Of a stretch of 37,690 bases of DNA, positions 16,523 to 30,364 are shown one piece after another; position 1 is the stretch's first letter; every line of letters begins with the position of its first letter. The notes under the pieces were generated by a model that had not been told where the DNA came from, did not search any database, and worked only from the letters and a program-made list of their open reading frames with translations. Where the stretch lies: contig PLOR01000098.1 of NCBI GenBank assembly GCA_003142185.1, positions 1-37,690 on the forward strand, read 5' to 3'. A program made the translations under genes and the position numbers. The stretch is from Bryobacterales bacterium. Its GTDB lineage: Bacteria > Acidobacteriota > Terriglobia > Bryobacterales > Bryobacteraceae.

Positions 16523-17543
16523 ACTGCTCCCCGACCGTGCCCTTGAGGCTGATCGTACCTTCCGATTCGAGTTGCCGCACGACGGCGATGATCGACTGCT
16601 GGGCCGTCTCCACCTCCTTGATCTTGACCGGGCCCAGCGCTTCCATGTCTTCCTTCAACATCTCGGCACCGCGTTGCGACATGCATCCCAGAATCTGCGC
16701 CCGCAGTTGTTCGCTGGTGCCTTTGAGCGCCACCGTCAATAGTTTGCGATCCACCTTGGCCAGCACCTCCTTGAGCCCCATGGGATCGATCAACAGCAGA
16801 TCCTCGAACACGAACATCAGGTGCCGGATGGTCTGCGCCAGGTTGGTGTCCGCCTGCTCGATGTGATTGAGAATCTCGCGGCTCGAGGTGGAATCCAGGC
16901 GGTTCAGCACTTCGGCCACCGCGCGCACGCCGCCATAGGACTCGCGGCTGAATTCCCCGAGGGCCTGCAGCTTCTGGCCGATGACGTTGGCGATTTTGAG
17001 GATGATTTCCGGGGAGATCTGGTCCAGACTCGCCATGCGCTGGGCCACGTCGGAGCGCAGCCCGGCCGGCAGCGAATTCAACAGCGCGGCGGCCTGGGAA
17101 GCGTTGAGATGCGACAGGACCAGCGCGATGGTCTGCGGGTGTTCGTTGTGAATGAATTTCGCAAGCTGTTGCGGGTCGGCTTTTTGCAGCGCATCGAAGG
17201 AAGCGGCATCCGCGCCCAGGGCTTTGGCCAAGCGATCCAGCATCCGTTTGGCGGTGTCCGGACTAAATGTCCGCATCAAGAGTTTGCGCGCGAAGTCGAT
17301 GCCGCCGCGCGCGACGTAGTCGCCCGCCACTGCCATATGGTGAAAATCGTTGAGGACGCTTTCGGCCTGGTCGCTGGAGATGGAAGTGACTCGGGCTACT
17401 TCGCGGCTGACCCTCTGGACATCGTCCTCCGATAGCTGCTGCAACATTTCCGATGCCGTCTGTTCGCCCAGCACAATCAGCAGCATCGCTGCCCTGCGCA
17501 GCGGCGATAGCGTCTCGGTGTCCGGCTTGGCGTTAACGATCAT
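16512..17543 (-). CDS. fliG: Flagellar motor switch protein FliG
   Basis: A 343-residue protein with three FliG domains: N (LRRAAMLLIVLGEQTASEMLQQLSEDDV), middle with the EHPQ motif (NEHPQTIALVLSHLNASQAAALLNSLP, ~132-158), and C (MFVFEDLLLIDPMGLKEVLAKVDRKLLTVALKG, ~243-276), which contains the charged torque helix. FliG connects the MS ring (FliF) to FliM and interacts with MotA. It lies 23 bases after fliF and has normal family length (~330-340). Confidence 0.95.
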   Translation of the reverse strand: MIVNAKPDTETLSPLRRAAMLLIVLGEQTASEMLQQLSEDDVQRVSREVARVTSISSDQAESVLNDFHHMAVAGDYVARGGIDFARKLLMRTFSPDTAKRMLDRLAKALGADAASFDALQKADPQQLAKFIHNEHPQTIALVLSHLNASQAAALLNSLPAGLRSDVAQRMASLDQISPEIILKIANVIGQKLQALGEFSRESYGGVRAVAEVLNRLDSTSSREILNHIEQADTNLAQTIRHLMFVFEDLLLIDPMGLKEVLAKVDRKLLTVALKGTSEQLRAQILGCMSQRGAEMLKEDMEALGPVKIKEVETAQQSIIAVVRQLESEGTISLKGTVGEQYVV

Positions 17544-17566
17544 CGCCTATCCACCACCCCCGGGCG

Positions 17567-19267
17567 TCACATATCCTCCTCGCGAATCCACGTCCGCAGA
17601 ACCTGCGCCGGCGTTTCCGGGTCCTGTTTGATCTTTTCCCGCAAGTGTTTGGCCAGCACTTCGGCGGTCTTAGTGATGACCGGCGCCATGTTCAAAGCGT
17701 TCAGAGCCTGCGCCTCCATCTTCTGCTGCATGGCGTCGCGCGCGGCCAGCTTGGATTCAATCTGTTGCTCCACGTTGGAGCCGGGGGCCGCAAGGCCAGG
17801 CGCCGCCGGCTGGGCGCCCTCCGGCGCGGCGGGCAACGCCTGCTGCAAGGCCACCTTCCCGCGCTGCGTATGGCTCTTTCCCCGCAGCAGCCAGGCGGCT
17901 ACGAAACCGAGGACCACCAGGCCCAGCGCCGCTCCCGCCGCCACCGGCATGGTCTTGCGGTCGATGGGCAGGCCGAAGGGGCCGGCCGGCCTGGCCGGCG
18001 GCGCCGAAACCTGCGGCTGCGGAGGCTCCAAGGTCAGCGTAGTCTCGAACGGCAGCGACTCGATGGTAATCTGATCGCCCCGCTCGGCGTTGAACCCGGT
18101 GACTCCCGTCACCAGATCGCGGACCACCTTCAGCTTGTCCGCGCTCGGGGGCACCAGCACGCGCTGGTAGCCGGTCTTGTCCTTTTGCCAGCTCAGTTCA
18201 TGGTCTACCAGAACCGCCAGCGACATCCTGCGCACGGTTCCCGCCGGAAGACGGGTCTTTTTCACCGTTCGACTAGCCTGGTAGGTGATATTTTCCGTCA
18301 CGCGCGTGTTGCGCCCCGCCCCGTTGCCCGGGCGCGACGTGGGTCTGGGCAAACTGGAGGGAGTTCCCGGCACGCCGGCCGCGAACGCGGAGCCGGAGTT
18401 GTCTTCGCTGCGTTGGGAAGTGAGCATCACGGAGCGGGCGGGGTCGTAAAGCTCCTCGCTCTGCTCGCCGGCGGCGAAGTCGCATTCGACGGAAACTCCT
18501 GCGCGGTACTTCCCCGCGCCCAGCAGGGGCTCGAGTGTGGAAGCGATCTTGGCCAGCAGGTCCGCCTCGACTTTGTGCCGGTATTCGAGCGACGCTTCGG
18601 AGGAATCGGGACCCTCCAGCCCGCCCGCCGCCGCAGGCCGGCCCAACAGGTTGCCGTTCATGTCCAAAACCGACACCGCGTCCGGCGCAAGCCCCTCCAC
18701 GGCGCTCGCCACGAGATGGTCGATGGCCTGGACGTTCTCCGCCCCCAGGTGCGCGCCGGGCCGGATCTTGACGAGCACGCTGGCCTTGGCCGGCTCCTGC
18801 GAGTCCAGAAAAACGGATTCCTTCGGAAAAGTGATGTGGACGCGGGCTTGTTCCACTTCCGCCAGACAAATAATGGACCGTTCGAGTTCCCCTTCGAGCG
18901 CACGCCGGTAATTGACGTGTTCGGTGAATTCGGTGGCCCCGAGGTTCGCCTTGTCGAACAGCTCGAAGCCGATGCGGCCCGATCTCGGCAGGCCCGCCGT
19001 CGCCATGGTTAAGCGCAATTCCGCCAGCCGGGCGGAGGGAACCATCACCACGCCGCCCGACTCAGGCAGGCGGTAGTCCACGCCGCTCTCCTTCAATTTC
19101 TGGACGATCGCGCCGGCGTCTTCCGGGGCCAGGCCGGTGTAGAGGGGCTTGAAGTCGGCTTCCTTTTGCCAATGCACCAGGGCGTACAGTGCTGCTGCAA
19201 CGGCTACCACGATCAGGCCGATGGTGGCGCGCTGGCGCAAGCTGAGGTTGGCAAATACGCTCTTCAT
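17567..19267 (-). CDS. fliF: Flagellar MS-ring protein FliF
   Basis: A 566-residue protein starting at ATG 19267 (MKSVFANLS), with CGGAGC upstream; the longer frame to 19336 adds residues unlike the family. TM1 at ~15-33 (IGLIVVAVAAALYALVHW), YscJ/FliF domains (KPLYTGLAPEDAGAIVQKLKESGVDYRL; RRALEGELERSIICLAEVEQARVHITFPKESVFL; ASVLVKIRPG), C-terminal domain (QRSEDN, RNTRVTENITYQASRTVKKTRLPAG), TM2 at ~443-463 (AAGALGLVVLGFVAAWLL) and a C-terminal FliG-binding tail. First gene of the fliF-G-H-I-J block, separated from fliE by an oppositely oriented gene. Confidence 0.94.
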   Translation of the reverse strand: MKSVFANLSLRQRATIGLIVVAVAAALYALVHWQKEADFKPLYTGLAPEDAGAIVQKLKESGVDYRLPESGGVVMVPSARLAELRLTMATAGLPRSGRIGFELFDKANLGATEFTEHVNYRRALEGELERSIICLAEVEQARVHITFPKESVFLDSQEPAKASVLVKIRPGAHLGAENVQAIDHLVASAVEGLAPDAVSVLDMNGNLLGRPAAAGGLEGPDSSEASLEYRHKVEADLLAKIASTLEPLLGAGKYRAGVSVECDFAAGEQSEELYDPARSVMLTSQRSEDNSGSAFAAGVPGTPSSLPRPTSRPGNGAGRNTRVTENITYQASRTVKKTRLPAGTVRRMSLAVLVDHELSWQKDKTGYQRVLVPPSADKLKVVRDLVTGVTGFNAERGDQITIESLPFETTLTLEPPQPQVSAPPARPAGPFGLPIDRKTMPVAAGAALGLVVLGFVAAWLLRGKSHTQRGKVALQQALPAAPEGAQPAAPGLAAPGSNVEQQIESKLAARDAMQQKMEAQALNALNMAPVITKTAEVLAKHLREKIKQDPETPAQVLRTWIREEDM

Positions 19268-19445
19268 GCCGGTTGCTCCGGCACACTGCCGGTGTATTCC
19301 ATAGATCGGTGGGAGGAGCTCAAAACCTGAGGCCAATGAGCGCGAAACAGCAGAAAGAAGCTCTTAAAGGGCTAAAAGGGACTCACGGGAACCTCCTGCG
19401 ACTCGAAATCGTATCGGATAATGGATGCTTTCCGAAGAGGCTATT

Positions 19446-19901
19446 ATGGCTCGTTCCTTCCGTTCGGAGATTGGCCGCTGGAGTGCGCTACTCTGGCTTG
19501 CAGTCTCGACGGTTTATCTAATAGTTTTGTCGGTTCTGATCTGTGGTAATGCGCGATTTCCACTGAACCTCGGAGCGATCAGGACGACGGGCCGAGTCGG
19601 TTTATTAGTGACTCTGGCACCTGCCATTGCCGGCTGTCTTGCATTCATCCTGGTGTTGTTTCGCACTCGTGCCGGCGCAATCGTTCTTGGCGCTTATTGC
19701 GGGGTCTGGATAATCGTCCTCGCCTGTGGGCTGCCTTGGGTCTGGAACGCCCGCGAGTCCTTTTGCGTGCGCACCGTGTGCATCAGAACCCCCTGGATCG
19801 GACGGATACTGGTGTTCGCGCTGATGACACCATTTGCGATCATCGCCAACTGGGCAAAGCATGAATTCACCAGGCTGCGGCAAACGCATCTTTCACAGTA
19901 A
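19446..19901 (+). CDS. Orphan multi-pass membrane protein inside flagellar operon
   Basis: A 151-residue protein starting at ATG 19446 after GAAGAGG (spacing 5), with four predicted TM helices (LLWLAVSTVYLIVLSVLI; RVGLLVTLAPAIAGCLAFILVLF; AIVLGAYCGVWIIVLACGL; GRILVFALMTPFAIIANW). No family was recognised. It lies on the strand opposite the flagellar genes, between fliE and fliF, and its base composition is visibly less G+C rich than its neighbours, suggesting insertion or an independent gene. It has four Cys, two of them as CVRTVC in the last loop. Function unknown. Confidence 0.65.
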   Translation: MARSFRSEIGRWSALLWLAVSTVYLIVLSVLICGNARFPLNLGAIRTTGRVGLLVTLAPAIAGCLAFILVLFRTRAGAIVLGAYCGVWIIVLACGLPWVWNARESFCVRTVCIRTPWIGRILVFALMTPFAIIANWAKHEFTRLRQTHLSQ

Positions 19902-20097
19902 CAACAGTTTTTCGCAAGCAGTCCTGCAGAAAATGGAAATCCTGAACGATAATCCTTTCGCCCCTGGACCTTCGGGCTGAAGTAATGATGTCCTCGGTCC
20001 TGCGCGAAAGCCAAAACCGCAAGGTGATTCTCATCTGGCGATATCAGACCAGCCACTCTCCCAGGTGCCTGCAGTGTCCCAGTTCCGACAGAATCCC

Positions 20098-20391
20098 CTA
20101 GAGTTGCATGCGCATGATTTCCTGATAAGCGCTGACCGCTTTGTTGCGCGTCTGGAGGAACATGTCGAAGGCCATCTCAGCCCTGGTGGTGGCCAGCGCC
20201 GCAGTATGGAGATCCTCACCATCGCCGGTGAGGAAGCGGTCGACCGATGCCTGCGCCTGTTGGCCCGCGCCCTCCACCGAGCGGATGGCGCTCGAAAAGA
20301 CCTGGCCGAAATCACCGCCGCCTGTCCCGCCCGCCACCTGCAGCGGTTCGACCAGGGGCGGCGCCGAAATGGGAAGAATGGGGGACGCCAT
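20098..20391 (-). CDS. fliE: Flagellar hook-basal body protein FliE
   Basis: A 97-residue protein with the FliE pattern: FGQVFSSAIRSVEGAGQQAQASVDRFLTGDGEDLHTAALATTRAEMAFDMFLQTRNKAVSAYQEIMRMQL, split in a variable N-terminus and a conserved amphipathic C-terminal helix. The short string RNKAVSAYQEIMRMQ is highly typical. FliE joins the MS ring to the rod. It follows flgC by nine bases; the expected next gene fliF starts only 830 bases further downstream, after the orphan membrane gene. Confidence 0.93.
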   Translation of the reverse strand: MASPILPISAPPLVEPLQVAGGTGGGDFGQVFSSAIRSVEGAGQQAQASVDRFLTGDGEDLHTAALATTRAEMAFDMFLQTRNKAVSAYQEIMRMQL

Positions 20392-20400
20392 GGTTCAGCC

Positions 20401-20835
20401 TCACTTCAACAAGTCGATGGAGCGCTGGATCATGTCCTTGACCGCGCCGATGGCCGCCACGTTGGCTTCGTAGCCGCGTGCCGCACCCATCAGATCCACC
20501 ATGTCTTCGGCCGGGTTCACCCGCGGAAAGGCCACGTACCCGTTGGCATCGGCATCGGGATGCCCCGGCATGTAACGCTTCTCAGGGTCGCGCGTATCGG
20601 TCACCACCGAGGCCACGGCCACGCCGTTGGCCGCTTCAATCTCCTGGCCGAATACCGAGGAAAAGGGCGAACCGACCGTCGTGCTTTCGAACACCGCATC
20701 CTTGCGACGGTACGGCCCTCCTTCGGGCGTGCGCGTGGTTTCGGCGTTGGCCAGATTCTCCACCAGCAGTTCGGCACGCGCCCGCTGCGCCGCCATGCCG
20801 GATGCGCCCACCGAAAGCGCGGAGAACAGGCTCAT
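20401..20835 (-). CDS. flgC: Flagellar basal-body rod protein FlgC
   Basis: A 144-residue rod protein. N-terminal rod signature SVGASGMAAQRARAELLVENLANAETTRT (cf. the Flg_bb_rod ANxxT motif), then GGPYRRKDAVFES, then the C-terminal PGHPDADANGYVAFPRVNPAEDMVDLMGAARGYEANVAAI, which is diagnostic of FlgC (PxANxxGYV..PNV). Start overlaps the flgB stop (ATGA at 20835-20832). Confidence 0.95.
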   Translation of the reverse strand: MSLFSALSVGASGMAAQRARAELLVENLANAETTRTPEGGPYRRKDAVFESTTVGSPFSSVFGQEIEAANGVAVASVVTDTRDPEKRYMPGHPDADANGYVAFPRVNPAEDMVDLMGAARGYEANVAAIGAVKDMIQRSIDLLK

Positions 20836-21152
20836 GAGGTCTGCCCTTCTTTAATCGCCGAGCGCAGTTGCTGAATCTGCGAATGCAGCAGGGTGGAAGC
20901 CGCCTGAAAGCGCAGCGCGTTCTCGGCCAGCAAGCGCGATTCGCGGTCGATGCTGACGTTGTTTCCGTCATTCTTATTCGCCAGGCCAGCCACGGCGACC
21001 GCTTGCGGCGCGCCCAGCGCGTTCTGGAATTCGGACTGAAAGTCGATGTCTTGGGTCTGGTAACCGGGCGTATCCGCGTTGGCGATGTTGGAAGCCACCA
21101 GCTTCTGCCGGGCGCTCAGCAGATCCATGTAGCGTTCCAGTTCACCGGCCAT
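20832..21152 (-). CDS. flgB: Flagellar basal-body rod protein FlgB
   Basis: Rod protein with the ASNIANADTPGYQTQDIDFQSEF motif of FlgB near the N-terminus and a long helical C-terminus (NALRFQAASTLLHSQIQQLRSAI). ATG 21152 gives 106 residues; GTG 21167 and ATG 21218 are open alternatives, and GTG 21167 would place the NIANADTPGY motif about where it sits in other FlgB proteins. No strong SD decides among them. First recognisable gene of this flagellar operon; repeat family B lies upstream. Confidence 0.9.
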   Translation of the reverse strand: MAGELERYMDLLSARQKLVASNIANADTPGYQTQDIDFQSEFQNALGAPQAVAVAGLANKNDGNNVSIDRESRLLAENALRFQAASTLLHSQIQQLRSAIKEGQTS

Positions 21153-21438
21153 TGGACCGAGCGTCACACCCCAGTGCCAAGCATGAAGGTGGCCATACGG
21201 CAAGTCTTGTGGCGTCATCGCGCGGAGGGATCGAGAGGCGGCATTTTTCTGCCGTGCGGCAAGATCTTGGCGCGGGCAAACTAAGCTGGCTGCTGAAAAA
21301 ATCCGACAGAGGATTCCGAGCCACAGATGAACACGGATGAGCCAATCCTTCTCAATCGGTGTTCATCAGTGTTTATCTGTGTTCATCTGTGGCCGTTATT
21401 GTTTTTGGTGTTTTTGGGCAAGCTAAAGCGTGCCCTAC
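21153..21438. other. Spacer upstream of flgB holding repeat B
   Basis: Between the flgB start (-) and the end of the FHA gene (-). It contains the repeat B copy at 21288-21429 and no other recognisable gene; flgB promoter elements should lie here but I see no convincing hexamer pair. Confidence 0.5.
21288..21429. repeat. Hairpin repeat family B, copy 3 (inverted relative to copy 1)
   Basis: GGCTGCTGAAAAAATCCGACA (21288-21308), arm from 21319 (GCCACAGATGAACACGGATG) paired with 21358-21393 (ending GTTCATCTGTGGCC), then GGGCAAGCTAAAGC (21416-21429). These are the reverse complement, block by block, of 12798-12924. Confidence 0.75.
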
Positions 21439-22197
21439 CTATTGCTGAAAGCGGAGGCAGGCGCGGCCGAGGTGGATCTCGTCGCCGGGGCGCAGCTTTT
21501 CGCCGCGGCGGTTGCCGGCGGGGACGTCGATCGAGCGGCCATCGCGGAAGACGCGGGTGCCGAATTCGCTCCCGTCATCCGCGATGCGGTATTCGCCCGC
21601 CGCAAACTGGATGTGCGCGTGCTTGCGCGACACGGTGTTGTTGGACTCGTCGGCGCCTTCGAGAAAGACCACGTCGTTGCGGCGTACCACGCGCGCTTCG
21701 GCATCGGTCAACTCCGCCAGGCGGCCGATGTTGGTGCGCGGTTTCGAGAGCGGGTAAGTTTCGCTCTCCGCCTTACCCTTCACCACTACCAGGCTTGCCG
21801 GCGCGGGCGGAGCGGGTGCCGCGGTGCCATACCGAATCTCGAAGGCGCCGCGGCCGGATTCGGCGGTTTTGACATCGACCGCAAAGGCACTTGGCAACTG
21901 GCAGCCGGCGCCTTCCAGAGCCTGGCGCACGTCGTTCGCGAGGCGGGCCTCGGCGCCGAAAGCCGCGGCGTAGAGCGCGCGCCGGTCGGCGTCGGCGGAC
22001 ATCAAAGTGACGGTCACCAACGAGTAGGGGAAGACACGTTGGCCGCGGCCGGCGGTCTGCACTTTGGTTTCGATTTCCTCAAGGATGGCGCGATGCACCA
22101 GCAGCAGCTCATCGGACTGTGCGGCGCCGAAGACATGCTCGGTCCACTTGCGAAAGCCGCGTTCGATGGTCTTTTCGATATCGGAAAATAGTCTCAT
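21439..22197 (-). CDS. FhaA-like protein: DUF3662-type N-domain plus FHA domain
   Basis: A 252-residue cytoplasmic protein. Residues 1-~110 resemble the N-terminal domain of mycobacterial FhaA (MRLFSDIEKTIERGF...ELLLVHRAILEEIE, then RVFPYSLVTVTL). A P/A linker at ~125-135 leads to an FHA domain (~145-250) with the conserved NIGR (156-159), SRKHAHI (190-196) and GTRVFRDG turn, all residues that bind phosphothreonine peptides. FhaA recognises pThr on MviN/kinase in mycobacteria and regulates peptidoglycan (family knowledge). The ATG overlaps the stop of the SEDS-PBP gene (ATGA), so it is translated as part of that operon. No catalytic domain is present; it is an adaptor. Confidence 0.85.
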   Translation of the reverse strand: MRLFSDIEKTIERGFRKWTEHVFGAAQSDELLLVHRAILEEIETKVQTAGRGQRVFPYSLVTVTLMSADADRRALYAAAFGAEARLANDVRQALEGAGCQLPSAFAVDVKTAESGRGAFEIRYGTAAPAPPAPASLVVVKGKAESETYPLSKPRTNIGRLAELTDAEARVVRRNDVVFLEGADESNNTVSRKHAHIQFAAGEYRIADDGSEFGTRVFRDGRSIDVPAGNRRGEKLRPGDEIHLGRACLRFQQ

Positions 22198-25100
22198 GGC
22201 TGAATCAGGCCCAGTTCGAGCGCCGCTGCGACGATCTGGGCGGCAGCGGGCGCGGCGGTAGTGCCTCCGTACACTCCATTTTCCACCAGGATGGAGAAGG
22301 CAATCTTGCGCGGGCCGGCGCCATAAGGAGCGAAGCCGATGAACCAGGCATGGGAAGGCGCGCCGGCCAGCTCGGCGGTGCCGGTCTTGCCGGCGATGGG
22401 AACAGAGGACTCGGCTCGGCGTCCGGTGCCGGAAGTCACCACTTCCCGCATGAACTTGCCCAGCGTGGCAGCGGCGTCGGCGGTCAACACCGGCTGCGGC
22501 GGCGCGGTGCGCGGATTGGTCTCGTCGGCGATCCAGCGGCCCTGCGGCATGGCGCCGCCGGTTGCCACGGTGGCAGCCACGCGCGCCATCTGGAACGGCG
22601 ACGCCACCACCTGCCCCTGCCCGTAGGAAGATTGCGGCAGCGACTTGCGCAGTTGCGCGGCGGTCGCGGGCGCGGCCACGGAGATGCCGAGCAGACCGGC
22701 GGTTTCGAGCAGCGGCTCGGCGCCCACGTCATACGCGCCCAATTGCGCGAAGTAGGCGTTGCAGGAAAGCACGATCCCGCGCTCCATGTTGACCGTGCCA
22801 TGCGGCGCCCGATCCTGAATGTCGTCGCGGATAGGGCGCTTGGACCCTTTGATGAAGTTGCCCACTCGCCCGTCGGCGAGGCGGATGCATTCGTAGGTCT
22901 TGCCGGCGAGCTGCGGGTCCTTGCGCAAAGCGGCCATGGCGGTGACCACTTTGAAAGTGGACCCGGGCGGGTAGAGGCCGAAGCGCGCGCGGTCGAGGAA
23001 CGGATTGGCCTGGTCGCTTGCCGGTTCGGCTGGCGGCGTGTCGGGCGGCAAGGGCAGGCTCACGGCGGCCAGCAGGTCGCCGGAGGAGGGATCGAGAACC
23101 ACGGCCGCGCCTTTCTCGAGGCCCGCCGACTTCAGCGTGGCGCGCAAAATGGCCGCCACGCGCACGGTGAGGCGCGCGTCGATCGACATATGGATGTCGC
23201 GCGGCCGGTCGAGCACGCGGCGCACTTCGGGGCTGTTTGGTTCGTAACGGTGGCGCACCAGCGGGACCAGTTCGCGGTAATCGTAACGGATCACGCGCTC
23301 GATCGCGCCGGTCTTCGGGTTCTTGACGTCCACCAAGGTGGGGCGGTCGTCATAGCCGCGCAGGCGGCGGGCGGAATCGCGCTCCACAAACGCAGTGTTG
23401 CCGGCGGCCCAGCGTGTGCGGGTGCGCAGATCGCCCAGCAGGTCGAACATCAGGCCGCCGAATGGGTAGTGGCGATTGTCGGTGCGGGAACAGGCGCGAT
23501 CGATATCGATCGCGAGCGCGGCGTACTCGGTGCGATGTTTTTCGAGCTCGCTCCAGTCGGTGGTCGCCAGGGGCAGGCCGTTGCGGTCGTAGATGGCGCC
23601 TTTGGGAATTTGGCGCATCACTTCCTGAAAACGCGGATTGTATTCGAATCGGCGGGCGCCGTCAGCCTCCACCACTAGCGCGCCTTCCCCCATCACCGCG
23701 GCGGGGTGGAGCAACTCGACCCAGGCGGCCTTGGCCAGCACCGTCGCGCCGGCCACTGCGAGAATGATGCCCGCCACGGCTACGGCCGGGCGAAATGGCG
23801 CGGCCTCTTCTTCCGGCCGGCGCCGCGCGGAGATGGATTCGAGAATGCCGATCACCAGGAAATTCGCCAGCAGCGCGGTCCGGCCGTAACTCAGGAATGG
23901 CGTCACCACGCCGGAGAGCGGCGCCACGCCGAGCGCGCCGGCGGAGATCAGCAGAAGCTGCAGCGCGGTAGCCACGCCCAGCCCGGCGGCCAAAAAGAAT
24001 TCATAATCCGACGCGGCGCGCAAGGCGATGCGCAGCGCCCGCCATATGATAAATGCGTAAACGCCGAAGACCGCGGCGACTCCCAGGAAGCCGCATTCCT
24101 CGCTCAGGGCTGACAGGATCAGATCGGTGTGCGCCGCGGGAACCAGTTGCGGATCGCCCAACCCGATACCCATGCCGGAAAGCTGGCCGGTGGAAAAGGC
24201 CCACAGCGACTGCGCCAGTTGATCGCCGCCGTGAATCAGGTTATCCCAGGGCGAAAGCCACATGGAAACGCGCTCGCCAACGGTGTGCGGCACACCCAAA
24301 TAGAAGCCCGCCACGAAGCCCAGCACCACCAGCGCGAAGCCAACCAGGGGCACGAAAACGCTCGCGCGCGCGATGCCATAGAGCGTCAGAAACAGGCAGC
24401 AAAAAACCAGCGCCGGGCCCATATCTTTCTGCAGGAAGAAAAACAGCAGCGAAAGCGCCACGCACGCGGCGGCCGGCAGAGTGTATTCGACCGGCGGAAT
24501 ATCGATGTGACGAGTGAGCCGGACAAGCGAAGCGCGGGTTTCGTGCGCGTGCCGCAGCACGTCCCAGCGCCGCGCAAAATACCCGGCCAGAAAAAACACC
24601 AGCAGCACGCGGATGATCTCGACCGGCTGGAAACCGAGCAGGTTGACCTTGGCGTCGCTCGAGCCGGGACCGGAGCCGAAGACGATCAGCAGTGCGGAAA
24701 GCGCGAAGCTGGCCAGCAGCGGCACGAAGCTCAAGCGGCCGGTGAGGCGTTCGAAATCGAGCAGCGCGGCAGCGGCCATCAGCACGCAGCCGAGCGCCGC
24801 GCCCTGGGCGAAATCGGCGAACAGCAACTGATCGCGCAGCGGATCGCGCAGGCTGATCATCAACACCAGGCCGACGCCGGTAAGCAGAACCAGGGCGGAT
24901 ACAAGGTATGGATCGCCACGGAAACCGCGCGCGCTCCAGACCACGTTGACCAGCAGAAAGGCGGCGAAGAAAAGCGCGATCCAAATTTCGAACGAGCGGC
25001 GGAACTCCTCCGGCCGGCGCACCACCAGCGAGGGTTTGAGCAAGCGCAGTTGGTCGCCGCTCACCAGCGGCATGGACTCGCGGTCTTTGAGACGGTCGCG

Positions 25101-25487
25101 CAGCACCTGTAATCCGCGGCCGGCGAGTTCCTCGCGGGTAACGCGAATGCGGGCGATGGCGCCGACGTTGGCCAGGCCGCCGGAGATGTTGTAAATCTTG
25201 CGAGCGACGAATTCGCGCTCGGCCGGATCGGGATACAGCGCGAGCACGGGCAGCAGATCCTCGCGGACGGAAAGCTCGTTCAGGTTGACGATCTGCTTGG
25301 CGGCCAGCGCCTGTTCGGCGACGGGAAAGCCGGCGGTCTTGGCGCGCCACGCCAGCCACAAACCGGCGGCCACAACCAGGCCGGCGGCAACCATCCACAG
25401 CAGCTCGCGGATACGCCACGCGACGCGGCGTTGGGGGCCGCGCCCGGCGCTCGGGCGGTTGGCGGCGCTGCTGCGGGTGACGGGCAT
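22194..25487 (-). CDS. SEDS (RodA/FtsW) - class B PBP fusion protein
   Basis: A 1097-residue membrane enzyme from ATG 25487. The frame continues upstream for 52 codons but enters a repeat element, so those are not native. Residues ~27-46 are a first TM, followed by a soluble segment (~50-165), then the SEDS glycosyltransferase (~168-550): LQKDMGPALVF, the extracellular AAHTDLILSALSEECGFLG (catalytically important Asp455 in HTD), and GVAPLSGVVTPFLSYG. After a TM at ~567-586 comes a class B transpeptidase (~628-1097): KGAIYDRNGLPLA, SxxK in PPGSTFKVVTA (Ser843), SCN (908-910), AGKTGTAEL (1034-1036). One polypeptide thus holds both polymerase and cross-linker, otherwise separate (RodA-PBP2, FtsW-FtsI). 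It precedes an FHA gene and follows a Ser/Thr kinase module. Confidence 0.93.
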   Translation of the reverse strand: MPVTRSSAANRPSAGRGPQRRVAWRIRELLWMVAAGLVVAAGLWLAWRAKTAGFPVAEQALAAKQIVNLNELSVREDLLPVLALYPDPAEREFVARKIYNISGGLANVGAIARIRVTREELAGRGLQVLRDRLKDRESMPLVSGDQLRLLKPSLVVRRPEEFRRSFEIWIALFFAAFLLVNVVWSARGFRGDPYLVSALVLLTGVGLVLMISLRDPLRDQLLFADFAQGAALGCVLMAAAALLDFERLTGRLSFVPLLASFALSALLIVFGSGPGSSDAKVNLLGFQPVEIIRVLLVFFLAGYFARRWDVLRHAHETRASLVRLTRHIDIPPVEYTLPAAACVALSLLFFFLQKDMGPALVFCCLFLTLYGIARASVFVPLVGFALVVLGFVAGFYLGVPHTVGERVSMWLSPWDNLIHGGDQLAQSLWAFSTGQLSGMGIGLGDPQLVPAAHTDLILSALSEECGFLGVAAVFGVYAFIIWRALRIALRAASDYEFFLAAGLGVATALQLLLISAGALGVAPLSGVVTPFLSYGRTALLANFLVIGILESISARRRPEEEAAPFRPAVAVAGIILAVAGATVLAKAAWVELLHPAAVMGEGALVVEADGARRFEYNPRFQEVMRQIPKGAIYDRNGLPLATTDWSELEKHRTEYAALAIDIDRACSRTDNRHYPFGGLMFDLLGDLRTRTRWAAGNTAFVERDSARRLRGYDDRPTLVDVKNPKTGAIERVIRYDYRELVPLVRHRYEPNSPEVRRVLDRPRDIHMSIDARLTVRVAAILRATLKSAGLEKGAAVVLDPSSGDLLAAVSLPLPPDTPPAEPASDQANPFLDRARFGLYPPGSTFKVVTAMAALRKDPQLAGKTYECIRLADGRVGNFIKGSKRPIRDDIQDRAPHGTVNMERGIVLSCNAYFAQLGAYDVGAEPLLETAGLLGISVAAPATAAQLRKSLPQSSYGQGQVVASPFQMARVAATVATGGAMPQGRWIADETNPRTAPPQPVLTADAAATLGKFMREVVTSGTGRRAESSVPIAGKTGTAELAGAPSHAWFIGFAPYGAGPRKIAFSILVENGVYGGTTAAPAAAQIVAAALELGLIQP

Positions 25488-25904
25488 GTTAGCGGGTGGA
25501 ACCTGGCCGTCCGCAACCAGCGCCAATGGTGGGACGGACCATCGCTTTTCGTGGTCTGTCATGTCTCGCCAAGGCGCGACAACTTGACAGGGTCGAAAAA
25601 CCGCCTCGAAGCTCCGAGAACCCCGGCAAATCACCGGCGGCAAGACCGCCGGCGCTACCGGAGTTGTTCATGGAATTTCGCGGGCCGGCGGCCGATCCTA
25701 ACAGACCACAGAAACTGATCGCCTGTCCTACCTCTGACTTGACGAGGATGTACGAGCGCCGGGCGTCGGCAAGATTGCCGACGCGGCACGCACGAGTGCG
25801 TGCGCCACGTCTGCCGAACCGGGCACGCCCGCAGAGCCGGCGGGGGGGCCGGCTGCGGACGAGGGCGTCCGCCCCACGTTTTATGTAGGCCGTCGTACAG
25901 CCCC
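25488..25904. other. Spacer (417 bp) between kinase and SEDS-PBP genes
   Basis: Holds a MITE-like element (25528-25732) and, nearer the kinase stop, GC-rich hairpins including GCGGACG (25855-25861) paired with CGTCCGC (25866-25872) around a four-base loop, and an imperfect palindrome GCACGCACGAGTGCGTGC near 25784-25801. No coding sequence is credible. The gap suggests the kinase operon and the SEDS-PBP/FHA pair have separate promoters. Confidence 0.6.
25528..25732. repeat. MITE-like element, 205 bp, family A copy 2
   Basis: Left end 25528-25559 and right end 25701-25732 are 32-base inverted repeats with 24 matches, starting GGTGGGACGGACC and ending GTCCTACC. The left end also matches 3395-3426 of copy 1. 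The interior carries no gene. It overlaps only the non-native upstream extension of the SEDS-PBP frame. Confidence 0.7.
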
Positions 25905-27788
25905 TCATTTCTGCGCCGTGCCTCCAGTGTCCGCGATCTGTTGCAGGCGTGCGTTGACGATGAGCAGGCTGGCTTGGACGCGCACAATGCCGACGCTGGC
26001 GTTGCCATACGGGGCGACGTTCTGGTACAGGTCGAGCGCGCGGCGGTAATCGGCGGCGGCGCGATCGTCCTCGTCCTTTTCCTGCGGCAGGCCGCGAACG
26101 TTGCGCGAGTCCCAAAACGTGAGGTCGGCGCGGTCGCGGTAGCCATCGGCCAGTTGCAGCTTGTCGCGGTTGGCGAGCTGATAGCCGCGGCGCTCGGCCT
26201 CTTCGAGCGCGGCAGAGGTCTTGTCGATGTCTTTCAAGTTGTAGTAAGCGCGCGCCAGCCCAAGCTGGGGATCGGGCGAGTGCGGCAACAGGCGGTCGGC
26301 CTGGCTGAAATCGTCTACGGCGGTCTGCAGTTGCTTCGCGTCATGATGAGCCGCGCCATTGATGCGGGTCACGTGCCCTTCGGCCAGGCGCAGCTTGCCC
26401 CGCACCTGGTCGTCCGGATCCATCGCGAGGGCACGCGCCAGGGCGTTGCGGGCGCGTTCCCAATCCTTCTCATAGATCGGCTGGCCGTCGGCCTTGCGAT
26501 AGGCGGCAATCACGCGATCGGCTGTCTCCACCAGGTTTTCCTTCACGGCTTTCCGCGGCGAGTACAAGAGAAGAGACGAAGGATTGCGCTTGGAAAGTTC
26601 CGTCCAACGGTCCCAGATGCGATCGGGGTCGGTCACCTGCTCGGCCTGGATGTCACGCTTGAGCTGCTGGCCGTGCTGGTACATCAGGTAGTTGGCAAAG
26701 AGCTCCCAGCCGCCGTACAAGATCGCCGCTACGGCCAGCAGGGACACCACGCGCATGACGTTGCCGAATTTCGTGCGCGGCCGCTTGGGAAGCTGGGCGG
26801 TGAGAGGCCAGTTCCGCGCGGGCGGCTTGCGGCGCGTGGCTTCGCCCTGGGGCGCGGTGCGGCGGGTGGCATCGTCAAGCTCGGCGCGCGTCGTGCGCCG
26901 CGTCGCATCCAGGTCCTCGGTCGCCGCGCGCACGGTGCCATCGTGGCGGAACGCGATCAGGTCGTCGGCGAACTCGCGCGCGGACTGGTAGCGCATTGCC
27001 GCATCCGGCGCGGTAGCCTTGACGATGATGCGCCGCAGCGGTTCCGGGCAGGGATCGGGCGCGGGCGGCGGCGGAATGCGCGAGCGGATCATGCTCTCCA
27101 GGCGCTCGGTCGATTCGGCGTGATAAGGCTGCAGCCCGGTCACCATTTCGTAGAGCATCACCGCCAGCGACCACAAATCGCAGAGCGCGTCCACTTCGCC
27201 CGAATCGAGCCGCTCCGGCGACGCGTAGGGCACCGAGCCGAATTCATTGCGAGTCAGCCGGCGCGAAAGCGAAAGCGCCTTCGCAATGCCGAAATCGAGC
27301 ACGCGCACTTCGCCCCGGCTATCGATGCGAATATTCTTGGGCTTGATGTCGCCATGCACCACGCCGCGAAATTCCTTGCCGTCGATAGACGCCTCCAGGT
27401 TGTGGGCGTTGACCAGCGTCTCGGCCACCGCGATGGCGGTATCGACGGCGAACTCGACAACCAGCGGACCGTGGCGCAGCAACTCGGCCAGGTCCTGCCC
27501 GTCGATATACTCCATGGCGACATGGAAATAACTCTCCAGGTCGCCGGCCTCATACACGCGGACCACTCGAGGGTCGACGGCGGCCAGGCGGGCCTGCAGT
27601 TCCGCGCCGCGGCGTTCGGCTTCGATGGCATCGACAGTGTCGGCGTCCGCGCCGTGTTCGATCAGCTTCAGCGCCACCGTGTGCCCGGTTTCGGTGTCCT
27701 CGGCCAGGTACACGTCGGCCATGCCGCCGCGGCCGAGCTTGCGGCCGATTTCGTACTTGCCGATACGCCGGTCAGCGGGGGCAATCAT
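25905..27788 (-). CDS. Transmembrane Ser/Thr protein kinase with TPR-like C-terminal half
   Basis: A 627-residue Hanks-type kinase. Catalytic domain ~11-280: glycine loop LGRGGMADVY (18-27), Lys41 in VALKLI, catalytic loop VVHGDIKPKN (143-152, HGD in place of HRD), DFG at 165-167, GSVPYASPER (184-193). A juxtamembrane segment (~290-340) contains the string ATRR three times. One TM helix (~344-366) leads to a C-terminal half (~370-627) with TPR-like helices (WERARNALARALAMDPDD, LGLARAYYNLKDIDKTSAALEEAERRG, AAADYRRALDLYQNVAPYG). It lacks PASTA repeats. The gene overlaps the PP2C stop by ATGA and shares an operon with FHA1 and PP2C. It presumably phosphorylates FHA-bound or wall-synthesis proteins (inference). 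Confidence 0.93.
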   Translation of the reverse strand: MIAPADRRIGKYEIGRKLGRGGMADVYLAEDTETGHTVALKLIEHGADADTVDAIEAERRGAELQARLAAVDPRVVRVYEAGDLESYFHVAMEYIDGQDLAELLRHGPLVVEFAVDTAIAVAETLVNAHNLEASIDGKEFRGVVHGDIKPKNIRIDSRGEVRVLDFGIAKALSLSRRLTRNEFGSVPYASPERLDSGEVDALCDLWSLAVMLYEMVTGLQPYHAESTERLESMIRSRIPPPPAPDPCPEPLRRIIVKATAPDAAMRYQSAREFADDLIAFRHDGTVRAATEDLDATRRTTRAELDDATRRTAPQGEATRRKPPARNWPLTAQLPKRPRTKFGNVMRVVSLLAVAAILYGGWELFANYLMYQHGQQLKRDIQAEQVTDPDRIWDRWTELSKRNPSSLLLYSPRKAVKENLVETADRVIAAYRKADGQPIYEKDWERARNALARALAMDPDDQVRGKLRLAEGHVTRINGAAHHDAKQLQTAVDDFSQADRLLPHSPDPQLGLARAYYNLKDIDKTSAALEEAERRGYQLANRDKLQLADGYRDRADLTFWDSRNVRGLPQEKDEDDRAAADYRRALDLYQNVAPYGNASVGIVRVQASLLIVNARLQQIADTGGTAQK

Positions 27789-29344
27789 GGCTTCCCTCCC
27801 CTCCGCGCCGGGGCGGGTTTCGCATCCAGCAGGAAATTCTGCTCGCGAACGCTCTCCGGCTTGAGGTCGGTTGGTAACTCCAGCGTACTTTTATCGAACA
27901 CGTTCCCGGTGAGCGAAGGCTGCGCGCCATCGCGCGCCGCGAGGTTGACGCCGTGGTTGTGCAGAAACGAATTGTGCGACAGCCACAGCGAGCTGGGGCC
28001 GGAGGCGAGCAGCCCCTCGGCCAGCGAATCGCGGATGGTCGAAGCGCGCATGAGCAACCGGCTGGCGCCGCGAACTTCGATGCCGATGGTAGCGCCCTCG
28101 ATTTCCGTATCGTCGATCTCGATGCTGGAGTCAACTAAGAGAATGCCCTGAGGGAGCGGCGCCTGCGGGTCGGCGAGGATGCGCAGGCCCTGAATGCGGA
28201 CGTCGCGAACGTTGTCGCCCAACACAGCCGGGCCGGCCGCTCCAGGCGCGAGACGCAAGATGGCGCGGGAGCCATTCGCCATTTCGCCCCACTGGCTGCC
28301 ACGAAACGTGACGCCGGATTTCAGCCGCACCGGCTGATGGTATTCCCTGCCCGCGGCGAACTGAACGATATCGCCGGCCTGGGCTACTGCCAGCGCCTGG
28401 GAGACAGCTACGCCGAGAGTCCCGGGCCCGTTGTCGGAGGCATCGACCTGAAGGACCCGCGGTCCGACCCTAACCGAAGTCACGAGCTTGGAGGGCTGCA
28501 AGGTGCGCAGAACTCCGACGACAAAAAGCGCCACCAGCAACACGCCCGCGGCCAAAGCCACCGCACTGCCCACGCGGAACCCCAGGCGAGGAGCATCCGC
28601 GCTAGCCGCGGCGAATTTCGAGCCCTCCACCAGCACCACCGTGACATTGTCCTTGCCGGCGGCGGTATTGGCGGCCTCGATCAATTGGCGCGCGGCGGCG
28701 GCGGGATCGCCCGCGTTGCGTTCCACCAGCAGGCGTATGTAATCCGATGTCACTTGGTCGCTGAGACCGTCGGTGCACAGCAGCAGCGCCGCGTCGGACT
28801 CGAACGGCACACGTTCGATGTCGATGAAATCCGCGTCGTCGGGCGAATGCTCCTCGCTGCCCACGTCGCGAAAGACTTCGTTGCGGCGCGGATGGAGCAT
28901 GGCATCGAGCTCGGACAGTTCGCCCGCGTCTTCGCGCGCCCCCACCGGCGAATGGTCGTGAGTGATCTTGCGGATCGCACCACGGCGGATCTCGTAGAGT
29001 CGCGAATCGCCGACGTGGCCCACCACCGCCGAACCGTCATCCATCGCCACCAGAGTCAGCACGCAGGCCATGCCCTGCCACTGCGGATTGCCGCGCGCGG
29101 CGCGCAGAATCTCGTTGTTGGCCACGGTGATGGCCTCGCGCACGCGCTGCTCCACCGAGCCGGTTTGGCGTTCCAGGCGGGCGCGGATGCGGTCCACCGC
29201 GATTGCCGCCGCCTTCTCGCCCGCCGCCTCCCCGCCGATGCCATCCACCACCAGGAAGATGCCGCGCTCGGCGTCCATGTACCAGGCGTCTTCGTTGTTG
29301 TGGCGCACGCGGCCCAGGTCGCTAGCCCCCGCGCATTTCAGCAT
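27785..29344 (-). CDS. Membrane PP2C-type phosphatase with extracytoplasmic beta-helix domain
   Basis: A 519-residue protein from ATG 29344 (ATG 29362 is an alternative; neither has a clear SD). Residues 1-~242 form the PP2C/Stp1 domain: DLGRVRHNNEDAWY, VVDGIGGEAAG with metal-binding Asp34, VGDSRLYEIR, CTDGLSDQVT (Asp192) and GKDNVTVVLVEG (Asp232). A TM helix (~258-279, VGSAVALAAGVLLVALFVVGVL) precedes a ~240-residue outer part. That part reads like a right-handed parallel beta-helix: GDIVQFAAGREYHQPVRL, GVTFRGS, VRDVRIQGLRI, GILLVDSSIEIDDTEIEG, GIEVRGASRLLMRASTIRD, LWLSHNSFLHN. It partners with the kinase downstream (ATGA overlap). An extracytoplasmic carbohydrate-binding-like domain on PP2C is unusual. 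Confidence 0.9.
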   Translation of the reverse strand: MLKCAGASDLGRVRHNNEDAWYMDAERGIFLVVDGIGGEAAGEKAAAIAVDRIRARLERQTGSVEQRVREAITVANNEILRAARGNPQWQGMACVLTLVAMDDGSAVVGHVGDSRLYEIRRGAIRKITHDHSPVGAREDAGELSELDAMLHPRRNEVFRDVGSEEHSPDDADFIDIERVPFESDAALLLCTDGLSDQVTSDYIRLLVERNAGDPAAAARQLIEAANTAAGKDNVTVVLVEGSKFAAASADAPRLGFRVGSAVALAAGVLLVALFVVGVLRTLQPSKLVTSVRVGPRVLQVDASDNGPGTLGVAVSQALAVAQAGDIVQFAAGREYHQPVRLKSGVTFRGSQWGEMANGSRAILRLAPGAAGPAVLGDNVRDVRIQGLRILADPQAPLPQGILLVDSSIEIDDTEIEGATIGIEVRGASRLLMRASTIRDSLAEGLLASGPSSLWLSHNSFLHNHGVNLAARDGAQPSLTGNVFDKSTLELPTDLKPESVREQNFLLDAKPAPARRGGKP

Positions 29345-29385
29345 CGTGTTAGAGCCTGTCATGAAATTGCCACATCGATCACCGT

Positions 29386-29465
29386 GACCGCTCCCTCTGG
29401 GGTGCCCTCTGGTCGCGGCTCCGATCGCGCGCGAAATCGGAGCCGCGACCAAAGGGCGCGGTCGG
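29386..29465. repeat. Repeat family C copy 2, perfect 15-bp hairpin
   Basis: GGTCGCGGCTCCGAT (29411-29425) pairs perfectly with ATCGGAGCCGCGACC (29436-29450) around a ten-base loop; outer ends GACCGCTCCCT and AGGGCGCGGTC pair partly. It fills the gap between the FHA1 stop (29489) and the PP2C start and could act as a processing or attenuation site in the operon. Confidence 0.65.
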
Positions 29466-29488
29466 TACTGTTGCCGCTGAGCGGTTTC

Positions 29489-30364
29489 TTAACCATGCGC
29501 GGCGCTTCGGAATTCCAGAAAGCAAACGCCGGCCAGACCGAGACGCGCCTGCTCCGGCACGGGCGCTTCCACGTTGCGGTCGCGTTTCTCGGTGCCGGCC
29601 ACTTCGATGCTCGAAGGAGCGGCGACGCCATTAATGGTCGTGCCCAGCCGGCTCAGGTCCTTCAGAAAGAACTTGCCGGTCTCCGGATCGCGGCGCAACC
29701 GGAAGTGCTCGCGCGAAACATCGGGCAACGTGTCCAGTTTCAAGTCCGTCCAATAATCGCGCCCGCCGCGGCCCACCACGATTTCGTTCTTGGTCATGTA
29801 GAACGTCTTGCGCACGCCGCGGTCTTCATATTCGATGTACGCAAACGCGCCGGCGGGCGCCGCCGCTGGCGTCTCGGGCGCCGCCTGCGCCGGCTGGTAG
29901 GACGACTCGGCGCTCGCTGCCGTTCCCGCCATGCGGCGCGTGGCGATGCGCTTGGTCATGCTGCCGGCGCCGAGTTCCTCCTTGGCGGGCAGGGCCAGCT
30001 CGGAGTAAATGACGATGTCGCCCGCATCCACATCGTCGTCGGTATTCTCCAGAATGCGGATCTGCCATCCGCCCTCGGGTGCGGCCACCTTAGGCTCGCC
30101 GCGCCGCGCAAGTTTCAGCCGCTTGGCGAGCCCGCTGCGGTTGAGCGATTCCATCTCCGCATCGAGGGCGCGGCGCGCCTCATCGACAATGCGCGGCACG
30201 ATGCCGCGCAGCCGCTCCATGTCGTCCGGGTGCAGGTAGACGTGATAGATGGCCGGCGCCAGCGTGGAATAATGCAGAGGCTCGAGGCCCTCTCGCATGT
30301 TGCGCACAATCTCCAGAATGATGTCCCGCGCGGTGGCGGATGTAGCGGCGGCAGGTCGGTCCAT
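29489..30364 (-). CDS. FHA-domain protein with FhaA-like N-domain
   Basis: A 291-residue cytoplasmic protein, first gene of the kinase operon. Residues ~10-90 (DIILEIVRNMREGLEPLHYSTLAPAIYHVYLHPDDMERL) resemble the N-terminal fold seen in FhaA-type proteins and in the gene at 21439. A linker (~130-175) contains IATRRMAG and many A, P, S residues. The FHA domain (~183-290) carries VVGRGG (197-201), DVSREHFRL (215-223) and GTTINGV (241-247), the pThr-binding signature. Product probably acts as adaptor for the kinase encoded two genes downstream. No other domain recognised. Confidence 0.85.
   Translation of the reverse strand: MDRPAAATSATARDIILEIVRNMREGLEPLHYSTLAPAIYHVYLHPDDMERLRGIVPRIVDEARRALDAEMESLNRSGLAKRLKLARRGEPKVAAPEGGWQIRILENTDDDVDAGDIVIYSELALPAKEELGAGSMTKRIATRRMAGTAASAESSYQPAQAAPETPAAAPAGAFAYIEYEDRGVRKTFYMTKNEIVVGRGGRDYWTDLKLDTLPDVSREHFRLRRDPETGKFFLKDLSRLGTTINGVAAPSSIEVAGTEKRDRNVEAPVPEQARLGLAGVCFLEFRSAAHG

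Follow-up and report, generated by a model that had tools for sequence, protein, structure and literature searches.

The closest described counterpart of the locus reported here is the actinobacterial pstP locus, with the gene order fhaA-fhaB-pstP-rodA-pbpA-pknA-pknB, which we saw in the records of Actinomyces oris and Tsukamurella. In actinobacteria, the proteins of this locus are reported to act on wall growth, with PbpA as a substrate of PknB (PMC6554272, PMC3989709). Knockdown of the pstP operon is reported to stop growth in Mycobacterium smegmatis (PMC6554272), and mycobacterial FhaA is described as acting through MviN, the kinases having other substrates as well (PMC3989709). Single-ORF fusions of a SEDS polymerase and a PBP are also on record (PMC10449877, citing the Rhodococcus RHA1 genome paper).

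The window analysed here is the whole stretch of 37,690 nucleotides from a Bryobacterales bacterium. As the earlier note had described, it carries five consecutive minus-strand genes, hereafter the cassette, with four-base overlaps between the PP2C and kinase genes and between the SEDS-PBP and FHA2 genes. All five ORFs and both overlaps are present in the sequence, and Pfam searches bore out the domain calls, finding FHA in both FHA proteins, PP2C, Pkinase, and FTSW_RODA_SPOVE together with Transpeptidase in one frame. The features are as follows.

29489..30364, minus strand: FHA1 gene; weak FhaA_N-like N-terminus (residues 14-72), FHA domain (201-248), no TM segment
27785..29344, minus strand: PP2C phosphatase gene; PP2C domain, one TM segment, C-terminal beta-helix
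28619-29344, minus strand: PP2C catalytic domain (Pfam PP2C_2, 1.3e-15)
28508-28564, minus strand: PP2C TM segment (hydropathy)
27890-28147, minus strand: PP2C C-terminal beta-helix, presumably outside the membrane (Pfam Beta_helix, 1.6e-7)
27785..27788, minus strand: ATGA shared by the PP2C stop and the kinase start (sequence)
25905..27788, minus strand: Ser/Thr kinase gene; Hanks-type domain, Thr-rich juxtamembrane segment, TM segment, TPR-like C-terminus
27348..27356, minus strand: non-RD catalytic-loop HGD, kinase residues 145-147 (homologue alignment)
26826..26909, minus strand: juxtamembrane repeats DATRRT..DATRRT..ATRRK, kinase residues 294-321, candidate phosphothreonine docking sites (sequence motif)
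about 26694-26750, minus strand: kinase TM segment, between the juxtamembrane segment and the TPR-like C-terminus
22194..25487, minus strand: SEDS-PBP fusion gene, 1097 aa; SEDS polymerase and PBP transpeptidase in one frame
25470..25487, minus strand: conserved start of the fusion tail, M-P-V-T-R-S (homologue alignment)
25476-25478, minus strand: Thr4, candidate phospho-site (Thr here in 73/83 homologues)
23808-24905, minus strand: SEDS polymerase domain (Pfam, 7e-49)
22230-23111, minus strand: PBP transpeptidase domain (Pfam)
22194..22197, minus strand: ATGA shared by the SEDS-PBP stop and the FHA2 start (sequence)
21439..22197, minus strand: FHA2 gene; FhaA-like N-terminal domain and FHA domain
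21826-22197, minus strand: FHA2 FhaA-like N-terminal domain (hhalign)
21466-21729, minus strand: FHA2 FHA domain (Pfam; FHA fold by VIA-align, Z up to 16.4)

Three observations go beyond the earlier note: both FHA proteins show a weak match to the FhaA N-terminal domain (PF12401); the kinase has a TPR region at its C-terminus and no Pfam match to PASTA, and is non-RD, with HGD in place of HRD; and the C-terminus of the phosphatase is a beta-helix.

The cassette and the pstP locus have in common a FhaA-type protein, a PP2C phosphatase, a SEDS protein, a class B PBP and a Hanks-type kinase in a run on one strand; they also share the SEDS subfamily, and FHA2 aligns to FhaA over its length. They differ in that the SEDS and PBP proteins are fused in the cassette but separate in the pstP locus, and that one kinase (non-RD, with TPR and of another clade) takes the place of PknA and the PASTA kinase PknB. 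This kinase lies between PP2C and SEDS, whereas the pstP-type order is FHA-PP2C-SEDS-PBP-kinase. Furthermore, the cassette has two FhaA-like proteins, one at each end, and its PP2C carries a beta-helix. In the clostridial FHA-RodA-PbpA cluster of Monoglobus pectinilyticus, the FHA gene adjoins the SEDS and PBP genes and the SEDS protein falls on the cassette side of our tree, but SEDS and PBP are unfused and no kinase or PP2C of the cassette kind was found in the 20 kb examined. The PASTA-kinase/PP2C pair of Firmicutes is linked to wall growth; in Paenibacillus the two genes are adjacent, as in the cassette, but the pair has a PASTA sensor and no SEDS, PBP or FHA gene was found in the 8.9 kb examined. 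Two Rhodococcus plasmids encode SEDS and PBP as one protein, as in the cassette, but without kinase or PP2C neighbours. Since the SEDS half of these proteins falls among the canonical SEDS rows of the tree, the Rhodococcus fusion is, on this placement, independent of the cassette fusion, and we rejected a Rhodococcus-type event as the source of the latter.

The layout of the fusion would be a cytoplasmic tail, a TM segment, an outer helical domain, a second TM segment, SEDS and PBP, and its AlphaFold2 model has a mean pLDDT of 89.7. In the SEDS half, D455 and E463 are each present in 82/83 homologues, with one gap (all residue counts were made after repeats of the last 150 residues had been removed); we take D455, through the HTD motif, to be the counterpart of D262 of Escherichia coli RodA. 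The latter residue is reported to be needed for RodA activity (PMC6207328). In the PBP half, S843 and K846 of SxxK are each found in 82/83 homologues, S908 and N910 of SxN in 83/83 each, and K1034 of KTG in 80/83. The fusion thus has the catalytic Asp and the conserved Glu of SEDS proteins and the motifs of class B PBPs, and we predict a SEDS polymerase and a class B transpeptidase joined in a single polypeptide, the active-site motifs of both being intact. By profile, the best solved match of the PBP half is Mycobacterium tuberculosis PbpA (3un7, 4.9e-37), and a PBP tree of 44 rows gives the actinobacterial link a support of no more than 63/36. Structure comparison does not single out this protein: in VIA-align, PBP3-type chains (Z 41.5-45.2) and an Atopobium PBP (Z 42.5-43.0) are tied and M. 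tuberculosis PbpA is not among the 50 matches listed, and in Foldseek it appears at TMt 0.72-0.75 amid many PBP3 chains. Structure was thus discarded as proof of the PbpA link.

In the kinase, Pfam detected Pkinase (3e-37) and TPR_19 (3.4e-8); in the host genome a single PASTA match was found, which lies on C92 in a different frame. At residue 146, the 76 homologues have Gly (70), Ala (4), Thr (1) or a gap (1) and never Arg, which places the kinase outside the RD class. Its juxtamembrane segment contains at least one TRRT in 41/77 kinases and at least two in 34/77, against 0.86/77 expected after shuffling of the segment letters; TRRT is missing from the other 36. The tail of the synthase is mostly variable and Thr4 and E28 are its most conserved residues, Thr being absent from the Thr4 column in 10/83 fusion tails; in the AlphaFold2 model it is disordered, with pLDDT below 50 at residues 1-6 and 10-19. 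The Thr motifs common to this tail and the kinase, which were picked after inspection of the sequences, are candidate sites.

The phosphatase retains D113, D192 and D232 in 67/67 homologues and D34 in 65/67, the other two being gapped. For FHA1, Pfam gave FHA at 3.2e-8 and FhaA_N (PF12401) at 1.4e-4, 22.8 bits against a cut-off of 25; the match to the FhaA N-terminus is weak (probability 51), and the best solved-structure profile match, the FHA domain of M. tuberculosis FhaA (TB39.8, 4.7e-4), is tied with human CHFR (5.7e-4). FHA2 reaches 17.7 bits with PF12401, below the same 25-bit cut-off. Aligned by hhalign to three actinobacterial FhaA proteins (taken from three operon records; of the four that had been annotated or profiled, that of Nocardia was left out for its uncertain start), it gave a probability of 96.5 with the N-termini alone (E 8.5e-10, 124 columns) and 98.6 with the whole proteins (E 7e-16, 228 columns). 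By these alignments FHA2 is a full-length relative of actinobacterial FhaA; in the structure search the matching rows covered the FHA part alone and lent no support to FhaA_N. The conserved Arg, Ser and His of the phosphothreonine pocket of FHA domains are R199, S217 and H220 in FHA1 (each in 65/65 homologues) and R159 (71/73), S190 (64/73) and H193 (68/73) in FHA2. Both proteins thus have the residues of phosphothreonine-binding FHA domains, and binding is predicted.

Taken together, a predicted synthase is encoded as a unit with a putative transmembrane kinase, a putative transmembrane PP2C phosphatase and two FHA proteins, and we infer that the kinase controls the synthase. We consider it probable that the cassette is a remodelled relative of the actinobacterial fhaA-pstP-rodA-pbpA-pknA-pknB operon, of common descent with it, and that it provides a peptidoglycan synthase with a phospho-switch of its own. 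With input from its outer TPR domain, the kinase would phosphorylate its own juxtamembrane threonines and also Thr4 of the synthase tail, both sites having a T-R-[R/S] motif. FHA1 and FHA2 would read these phosphothreonines and, like mycobacterial FhaA, tether or gate the synthase and recruit partners. The phosphatase would reset the switch, and its outer beta-helix could bind wall glycans. The fusion would couple polymerisation to cross-linking without the two enzymes having to be assembled. Alternatively, the kinase, phosphatase and FHA proteins may act elsewhere, for example on lipid II export or the cytoskeleton, with the synthase co-expressed and not itself phosphorylated. The MviN route of mycobacterial FhaA and the other substrates of the kinases there (PMC3989709) speak for this explanation, but the four-base overlap shared by the fusion and FHA2 genes and the conservation of Thr4 and E28 in an otherwise mostly variable tail make it somewhat unlikely.

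The order FHA1-PP2C-kinase-SEDS·PBP-FHA2 is kept on one strand in 43 of the 48 loci that show the whole region, among the best 80 of 291; these 80, all from Acidobacteriota by their titles, lean to close relatives, and several loci occur twice under different ids (e.g. C216 of G001 as L034 and apparently L042). One named strain that carries the set is Occallatibacter savannae AB23 (L069). The count includes L080, L105 and L119, which are in neither model alignment (A6, 53 of 74 listed loci; A7, 52 of 66). FHA2 was missed six times, in at least two cases (L115 and L120) at contig ends; the PP2C gene is missing in L104, L111 and L118, and in L053 the 4.6 kb upstream show no kinase or PP2C gene. 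Of 41 genomes of the host's order (host included), eight carry all three of the fused synthase, FHA1 and the kinase and the other 33 carry none of them, so that FHA1 is found in 8/8 genomes with the fusion and in 0/33 without it. Such conservation of order and strand and such co-occurrence are more than chance, and chance neighbourhood was ruled out. The neighbour order, on which the earlier note had made its reading depend, is thus conserved. A larger conserved operon was rejected, since flanking families recur in six loci at most (one 7-locus family is represented by a cassette kinase) and queries with the window's RNase R, FlgB and FlgC matched none of the loci of eight relatives, some on short contigs. 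In a phylum-wide draw, the cassette occurs in at least 8 of 297 Acidobacteriota genomes, a lower bound as few candidates were scored per genome and the listing was cut; the set of G298 is split over two contigs. No report of the cassette in Acidobacteriota was recognisable from titles and the starts of abstracts, a coverage that mostly excludes subscription papers.

All eight genomes of the order that carry the fusion have two further SEDS genes each; the cassette synthase is thus an extra one. This observation, the patchy distribution, the lack of widely shared neighbours and a plasmid-borne copy in Spirosoma would also agree with a mobile accessory or backup synthase that secures survival in soil when the wall is damaged or attacked by antibiotics, and that the kinase and phosphatase switch on under stress and not in routine growth. 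We regard this as unlikely, because the class B motifs of the PBP are ordinary ones, so that low drug affinity is not indicated; the absence of any flanking family in more than six loci, judged by family recurrence alone, also counts against it.

Four trees were built from hand-picked rows (45 for SEDS, 44 for PBP, 52 for the kinase and 26 for PP2C), with references from outside Acidobacteriota taken mainly from a plasmid collection. In the SEDS tree, the cassette, the actinobacterial operon RodA and Monoglobus RodA fall together, with support of 100/99 for their separation from 22 further SEDS rows; the latter include the host's two other SEDS proteins (C60 and C92), labelled RodA and FtsW here from neighbours and tree place. 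The AU test rejected a union of cassette SEDS with acidobacterial RodA/FtsW (p 4e-68) and with six RodA-type rows alone (p 1.8e-4), both values being nominal as the groups were named after a tree had been seen; an origin of the cassette SEDS by local duplication of rodA or ftsW within the host was rejected on this test. The cassette kinases form a clade of their own (100/100) apart from PknA/PknB, in a tree without cassette-locus kinases below 220 bits and without the rearranged G091 set. The PP2C cassette clade, which includes Spirosoma and G099 at 98/99, is not joined specifically to PstP. Among the parts of the cassette, the kinase alone seems to have been recruited separately. G099, a distant Acidobacteriota genome, has the actinobacterial order with the fusion (FhaA_N protein - PP2C - SEDS·PBP - kinase), with no FHA domain detected in its FhaA_N protein. 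A plasmid of the Bacteroidota member Spirosoma oryzicola carries FHA - PP2C - kinase - kinase - SEDS·PBP - FHA; its fusion tail is without the Thr motif, its two kinases fall outside the cassette kinase clade, and no FhaA_N was detected in its FHA proteins.

The earlier note had proposed an analogous phospho-regulated wall system, perhaps separately assembled in a Gram-negative lineage. The module is indeed like the actinobacterial operon, with other domain architectures and in such a lineage, but separate assembly is unsupported, since the SEDS half groups with the operon RodA and FHA2 is, as aligned, a full-length FhaA relative. That the same kinds of parts were gathered again from local genes, as the other gene order, fused synthase, TPR in place of PASTA and separate kinase clade might suggest, is highly improbable given these two results and the finding of only FHA1 by the Pfam FhaA_N model in the host genome (a model that misses FHA2, so that other weak copies are possible). 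Within the preferred reading of a remodelled synthase of shared ancestry, we tentatively suggest a more specific picture: a mobile, self-contained phospho-switch in which the non-RD kinase marks Thr4 in the fusion tail, where the T-R-[R/S] motif of the kinase's own juxtamembrane repeats recurs, the two FhaA-like readers bridge kinase and synthase, and wall sensing falls to the phosphatase with its glycan-sensing outer beta-helix, in place of a PASTA kinase. This switch would descend from an ancient FHA-SEDS-PBP core common to actinobacteria and clostridia, with kinases swapped in and phyla crossed.

In actinobacteria, kinase control of SEDS-PBP synthases is hard to test because, as reported for M. 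smegmatis, pstP operon knockdown stops growth (PMC6554272) and the kinases have many substrates. The cassette offers kinase, phosphatase, FHA readers and a single-chain synthase as an accessory set, a compact system for phospho-control of wall building; with two further SEDS genes in 8/8 genomes, the individual steps could be deleted or reconstituted from the five genes. Its patchy occurrence in Acidobacteriota and its presence on a Bacteroidota plasmid indicate that the phospho-controlled wall operon extends beyond the Gram-positive phyla.

The earlier note had reported five consecutive minus-strand genes, and their coordinates, four-base overlaps and domains were confirmed by the sequence and Pfam:

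29489-30364, minus strand: FHA1, with FHA and a weak FhaA N-terminal domain (Pfam)
27785-29344, minus strand: PP2C, with PP2C, a membrane segment, then a beta-helix (Pfam for domains)
25905-27788, minus strand: Ser/Thr kinase, with kinase, a membrane segment, then a TPR region (Pfam for domains)
22194-25487, minus strand: SEDS-PBP fusion, with SEDS and PBP domains in one frame (Pfam)
21439-22197, minus strand: FHA2, with FHA and a weak FhaA N-terminal domain (Pfam)

In the window sequence, ATGA overlaps join PP2C to the kinase gene and the fusion gene to FHA2. The ATG at 25487 is likely to be the fusion start, because the M-x-V-T-R-S beginning is conserved. The gap between the kinase and fusion genes (25488-25904) is 417 bases in the window and about 143 in L034, a locus from the same genus; the extra length is possibly a short insertion. 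Flagellar genes (FliI-type ATPase, FliG, FliF, FlgC and FlgB) lie downstream of FHA2 at 14511-21218 on the minus strand; FlgB and FlgC queries matched none of the relatives' 8 cassette loci.

Full-length fusions were found in 8 of the 41 genomes of the order, the source genome of the window included; of the remaining 33, 32 matched with separate SEDS or PBP genes only and one gave no match. Profiles of FHA1 and the kinase, at thresholds of 1e-10 and 1e-100, detected both in these 8 genomes and neither in the 33 without the fusion. The five genes form a unit. Eight loci from seven relatives were read out; seven have the complete set of five in the same order, and one is truncated at a contig edge. 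The best 80 of 291 loci are all Acidobacteriota by title, and include Bryobacterales, Acidobacteriaceae, Thermoanaerobaculia, Holophagales, gp3, gp6 and gp18. Among these 80, neighbour order was kept in 43 of the 48 loci with the whole region visible, the exceptions being L045 (without FHA1), L057 (without FHA2) and L104, L111 and L118, which have no PP2C between FHA1 and the kinase. Given enough flank, presence among these loci was 72 of 73 for the kinase, 59 of 63 for PP2C, 54 of 55 for FHA1 and 69 of 75 for FHA2. No further family recurred beside the cassette in more than 6 loci. In a draw across the phylum, at least 8 of 297 Acidobacteriota genomes carry the fusion.

One fusion-bearing genome of the order, G002, holds two cassettes, L036 (contig C168) and L035 (contig C47), the second with a short PP2C protein lacking the beta-helix part. 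Another genome, G091, has a rearranged locus (L154:6986-19501: kinase - SEDS·PBP - kinase - FHA2 - FHA1 - PP2C - kinase), whose kinases resemble the cassette kinase weakly.

The source genome (5.8 Mb, 119 contigs) has two further SEDS genes, one on contig C60 and one on C92, and in both cases a PBP match lies no more than about 6 kb away; the labels RodA and FtsW were assigned to them in this analysis. Two further SEDS matches occur in all 8 fusion-bearing genomes of the order. The PASTA model has a single match in the source genome, on C92, in a 668-aa frame also carrying a PBP match. The whole genome gave 36 matches to protein kinases, some of them partial, compared with 4 to PP2C; two kinases and one PP2C lie together on contig C37. 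FHA1 was the only match to the Pfam FhaA_N model, and other weak copies may exist, since the model misses FHA2 too.

Residues were counted over 83 fusions, 76 kinases, 67 PP2C, 65 FHA1 and 73 FHA2 proteins. The fusions keep SEDS Asp455 (82/83) and the PBP residues S843 and K846 (82/83 each), S908 and N910 (83/83) and K1034 (80/83). The kinases keep Lys41 and Asp147 (75/76) and the activation-loop T179 (72/76), and are of the non-RD type (HGD), with Arg at that position in 0 of 76. D113, D192 and D232 are kept in 67/67 PP2C proteins, and the FHA pocket Arg, Ser and His in 65/65 FHA1 and 64 to 71 of 73 FHA2 proteins. Modelled with AlphaFold2, the fusion reaches a mean pLDDT of 89.7; stretches of at least 3 residues under 50 occur only in the tail (residues 1-6 and 10-19). 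From the residues kept at its active sites, the cassette looks active.

The earlier note regarded the cassette as an analogue, perhaps separately assembled, of the actinobacterial operon, which reads FhaA-FhaB-PP2C-RodA-PbpA-PknA-PknB in Actinomyces and Tsukamurella records (the Tsukamurella PP2C frame was located by profile, being absent from that record's incomplete gene table). Linkage of pstP, rodA, pbpA and a PASTA kinase is described as conserved throughout Actinobacteria, and pknB-fhaA linkage as also found in a subset of Firmicutes (PMC6554272); the strings 'acidobacter' and 'bacteroid' do not occur in the main text of that paper. In a SEDS tree of 45 rows, 17 cassette SEDS, 5 RodA from actinobacterial operons and one RodA from a clostridial FHA-RodA-PbpA cluster split from 22 other SEDS at 100/99, the source genome's two further SEDS falling among the 22. 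With G099 and Spirosoma (both described below) left out, forcing cassette SEDS together with 11 acidobacterial RodA/FtsW rows cost 96.5 log units (AU p 4e-68); for 6 RodA-type rows the cost was 63.8 (AU p 1.8e-4). Both p values are nominal because the trees had been seen beforehand. FHA2 could be aligned to actinobacterial FhaA over its full length, and its N-terminal domain also aligned when taken separately. The SEDS tree, the AU tests and this alignment speak against separate assembly; the analogous role remains likely. In the PBP tree agreement with the actinobacterial link was weak (63/36). Cassette, Spirosoma and G099 PP2C form one clade (98/99) that does not specifically join PstP, and the cassette kinases form their own clade (100/100), separate from PknA/PknB, with Spirosoma's two kinases placed elsewhere. 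From these placements, the FHA-PP2C-SEDS-PBP core looks to have been inherited or exchanged as a block, with the kinase place refilled.

Two further loci are bridging cases. The first, in G099, a distant Acidobacteriota genome, encodes FhaA_N protein - PP2C - SEDS·PBP - kinase with four-base overlaps (L152:6714-15095, ORF finder listing); the gene order is that of the actinobacterial operon, with SEDS and PBP already fused. Its FhaA_N protein scored 30.5 bits, over the Pfam cut-off, and yielded no FHA match. Its kinase has a diverged kinase domain, which matches part of the Pkinase model at 3.7e-15. The second, on the Bacteroidota plasmid of Spirosoma oryzicola (NZ_CP089545.1, L156:5253-15809), reads FHA - PP2C - kinase - kinase - SEDS·PBP - FHA. 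The FHA1 and FHA2 profiles both hit the plasmid's FHA proteins (5.9e-13 and 4.5e-9), which have no Pfam FhaA_N match; for its FHA2 protein this record was the only match among 72,556 plasmid records, and its PP2C ranked first among the plasmid rows for the PP2C of the window (40.8% over 49%). The two kinases are closely related to each other, and near the N-terminus the 1323-aa fusion shows a weak carboxypeptidase-regulatory-like match. Natural SEDS-PBP fusions are already known (PMC10449877). Two on Rhodococcus plasmids (L160:6258-9083, with a PBP dimerisation domain seen, and L163:4249-7089) differ from the cassette in lacking kinase neighbours and in having the SEDS half among canonical rows; they are an independent fusion event. 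The clostridial cluster, in Monoglobus (L162:8167-11152), is a small FHA - RodA - PbpA cluster with no kinase or phosphatase nearby, and its PBP falls with the PbpA of actinobacterial operons (99/98).

Apart from residues 1-6, R25 and E28, the tail of the fusion is mostly variable; residue 4 is Thr in 73/83 fusions. A Thr motif picked after inspecting the sequences, [VIAL]T[RK][RS], occurs in 64 of 84 fusion tails (66 matches, against 15 in the rest of those proteins); it is absent in Spirosoma. In the kinase juxtamembrane segment, TRRT is present in 41 of 77 proteins, at least twice in 34 of them, versus 0.86 expected on shuffling. These are candidate kinase and FHA sites. The kinase would mark itself and the synthase there, the FHA proteins would read its marks and the phosphatase would erase them. 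Pneumococcal StkP reportedly has a phosphorylated juxtamembrane domain that influences division (PMC12077195), and mycobacterial PbpA is described as a substrate of PknB (PMC3989709). The outward domains suggest that the inputs differ from those of PASTA kinases.

The cassette likely plays a role analogous to that of the phospho-controlled SEDS-PBP operon. What is new here is a variant of this operon in which the synthase is fused and the kinase has been exchanged, distributed patchily in Acidobacteriota.
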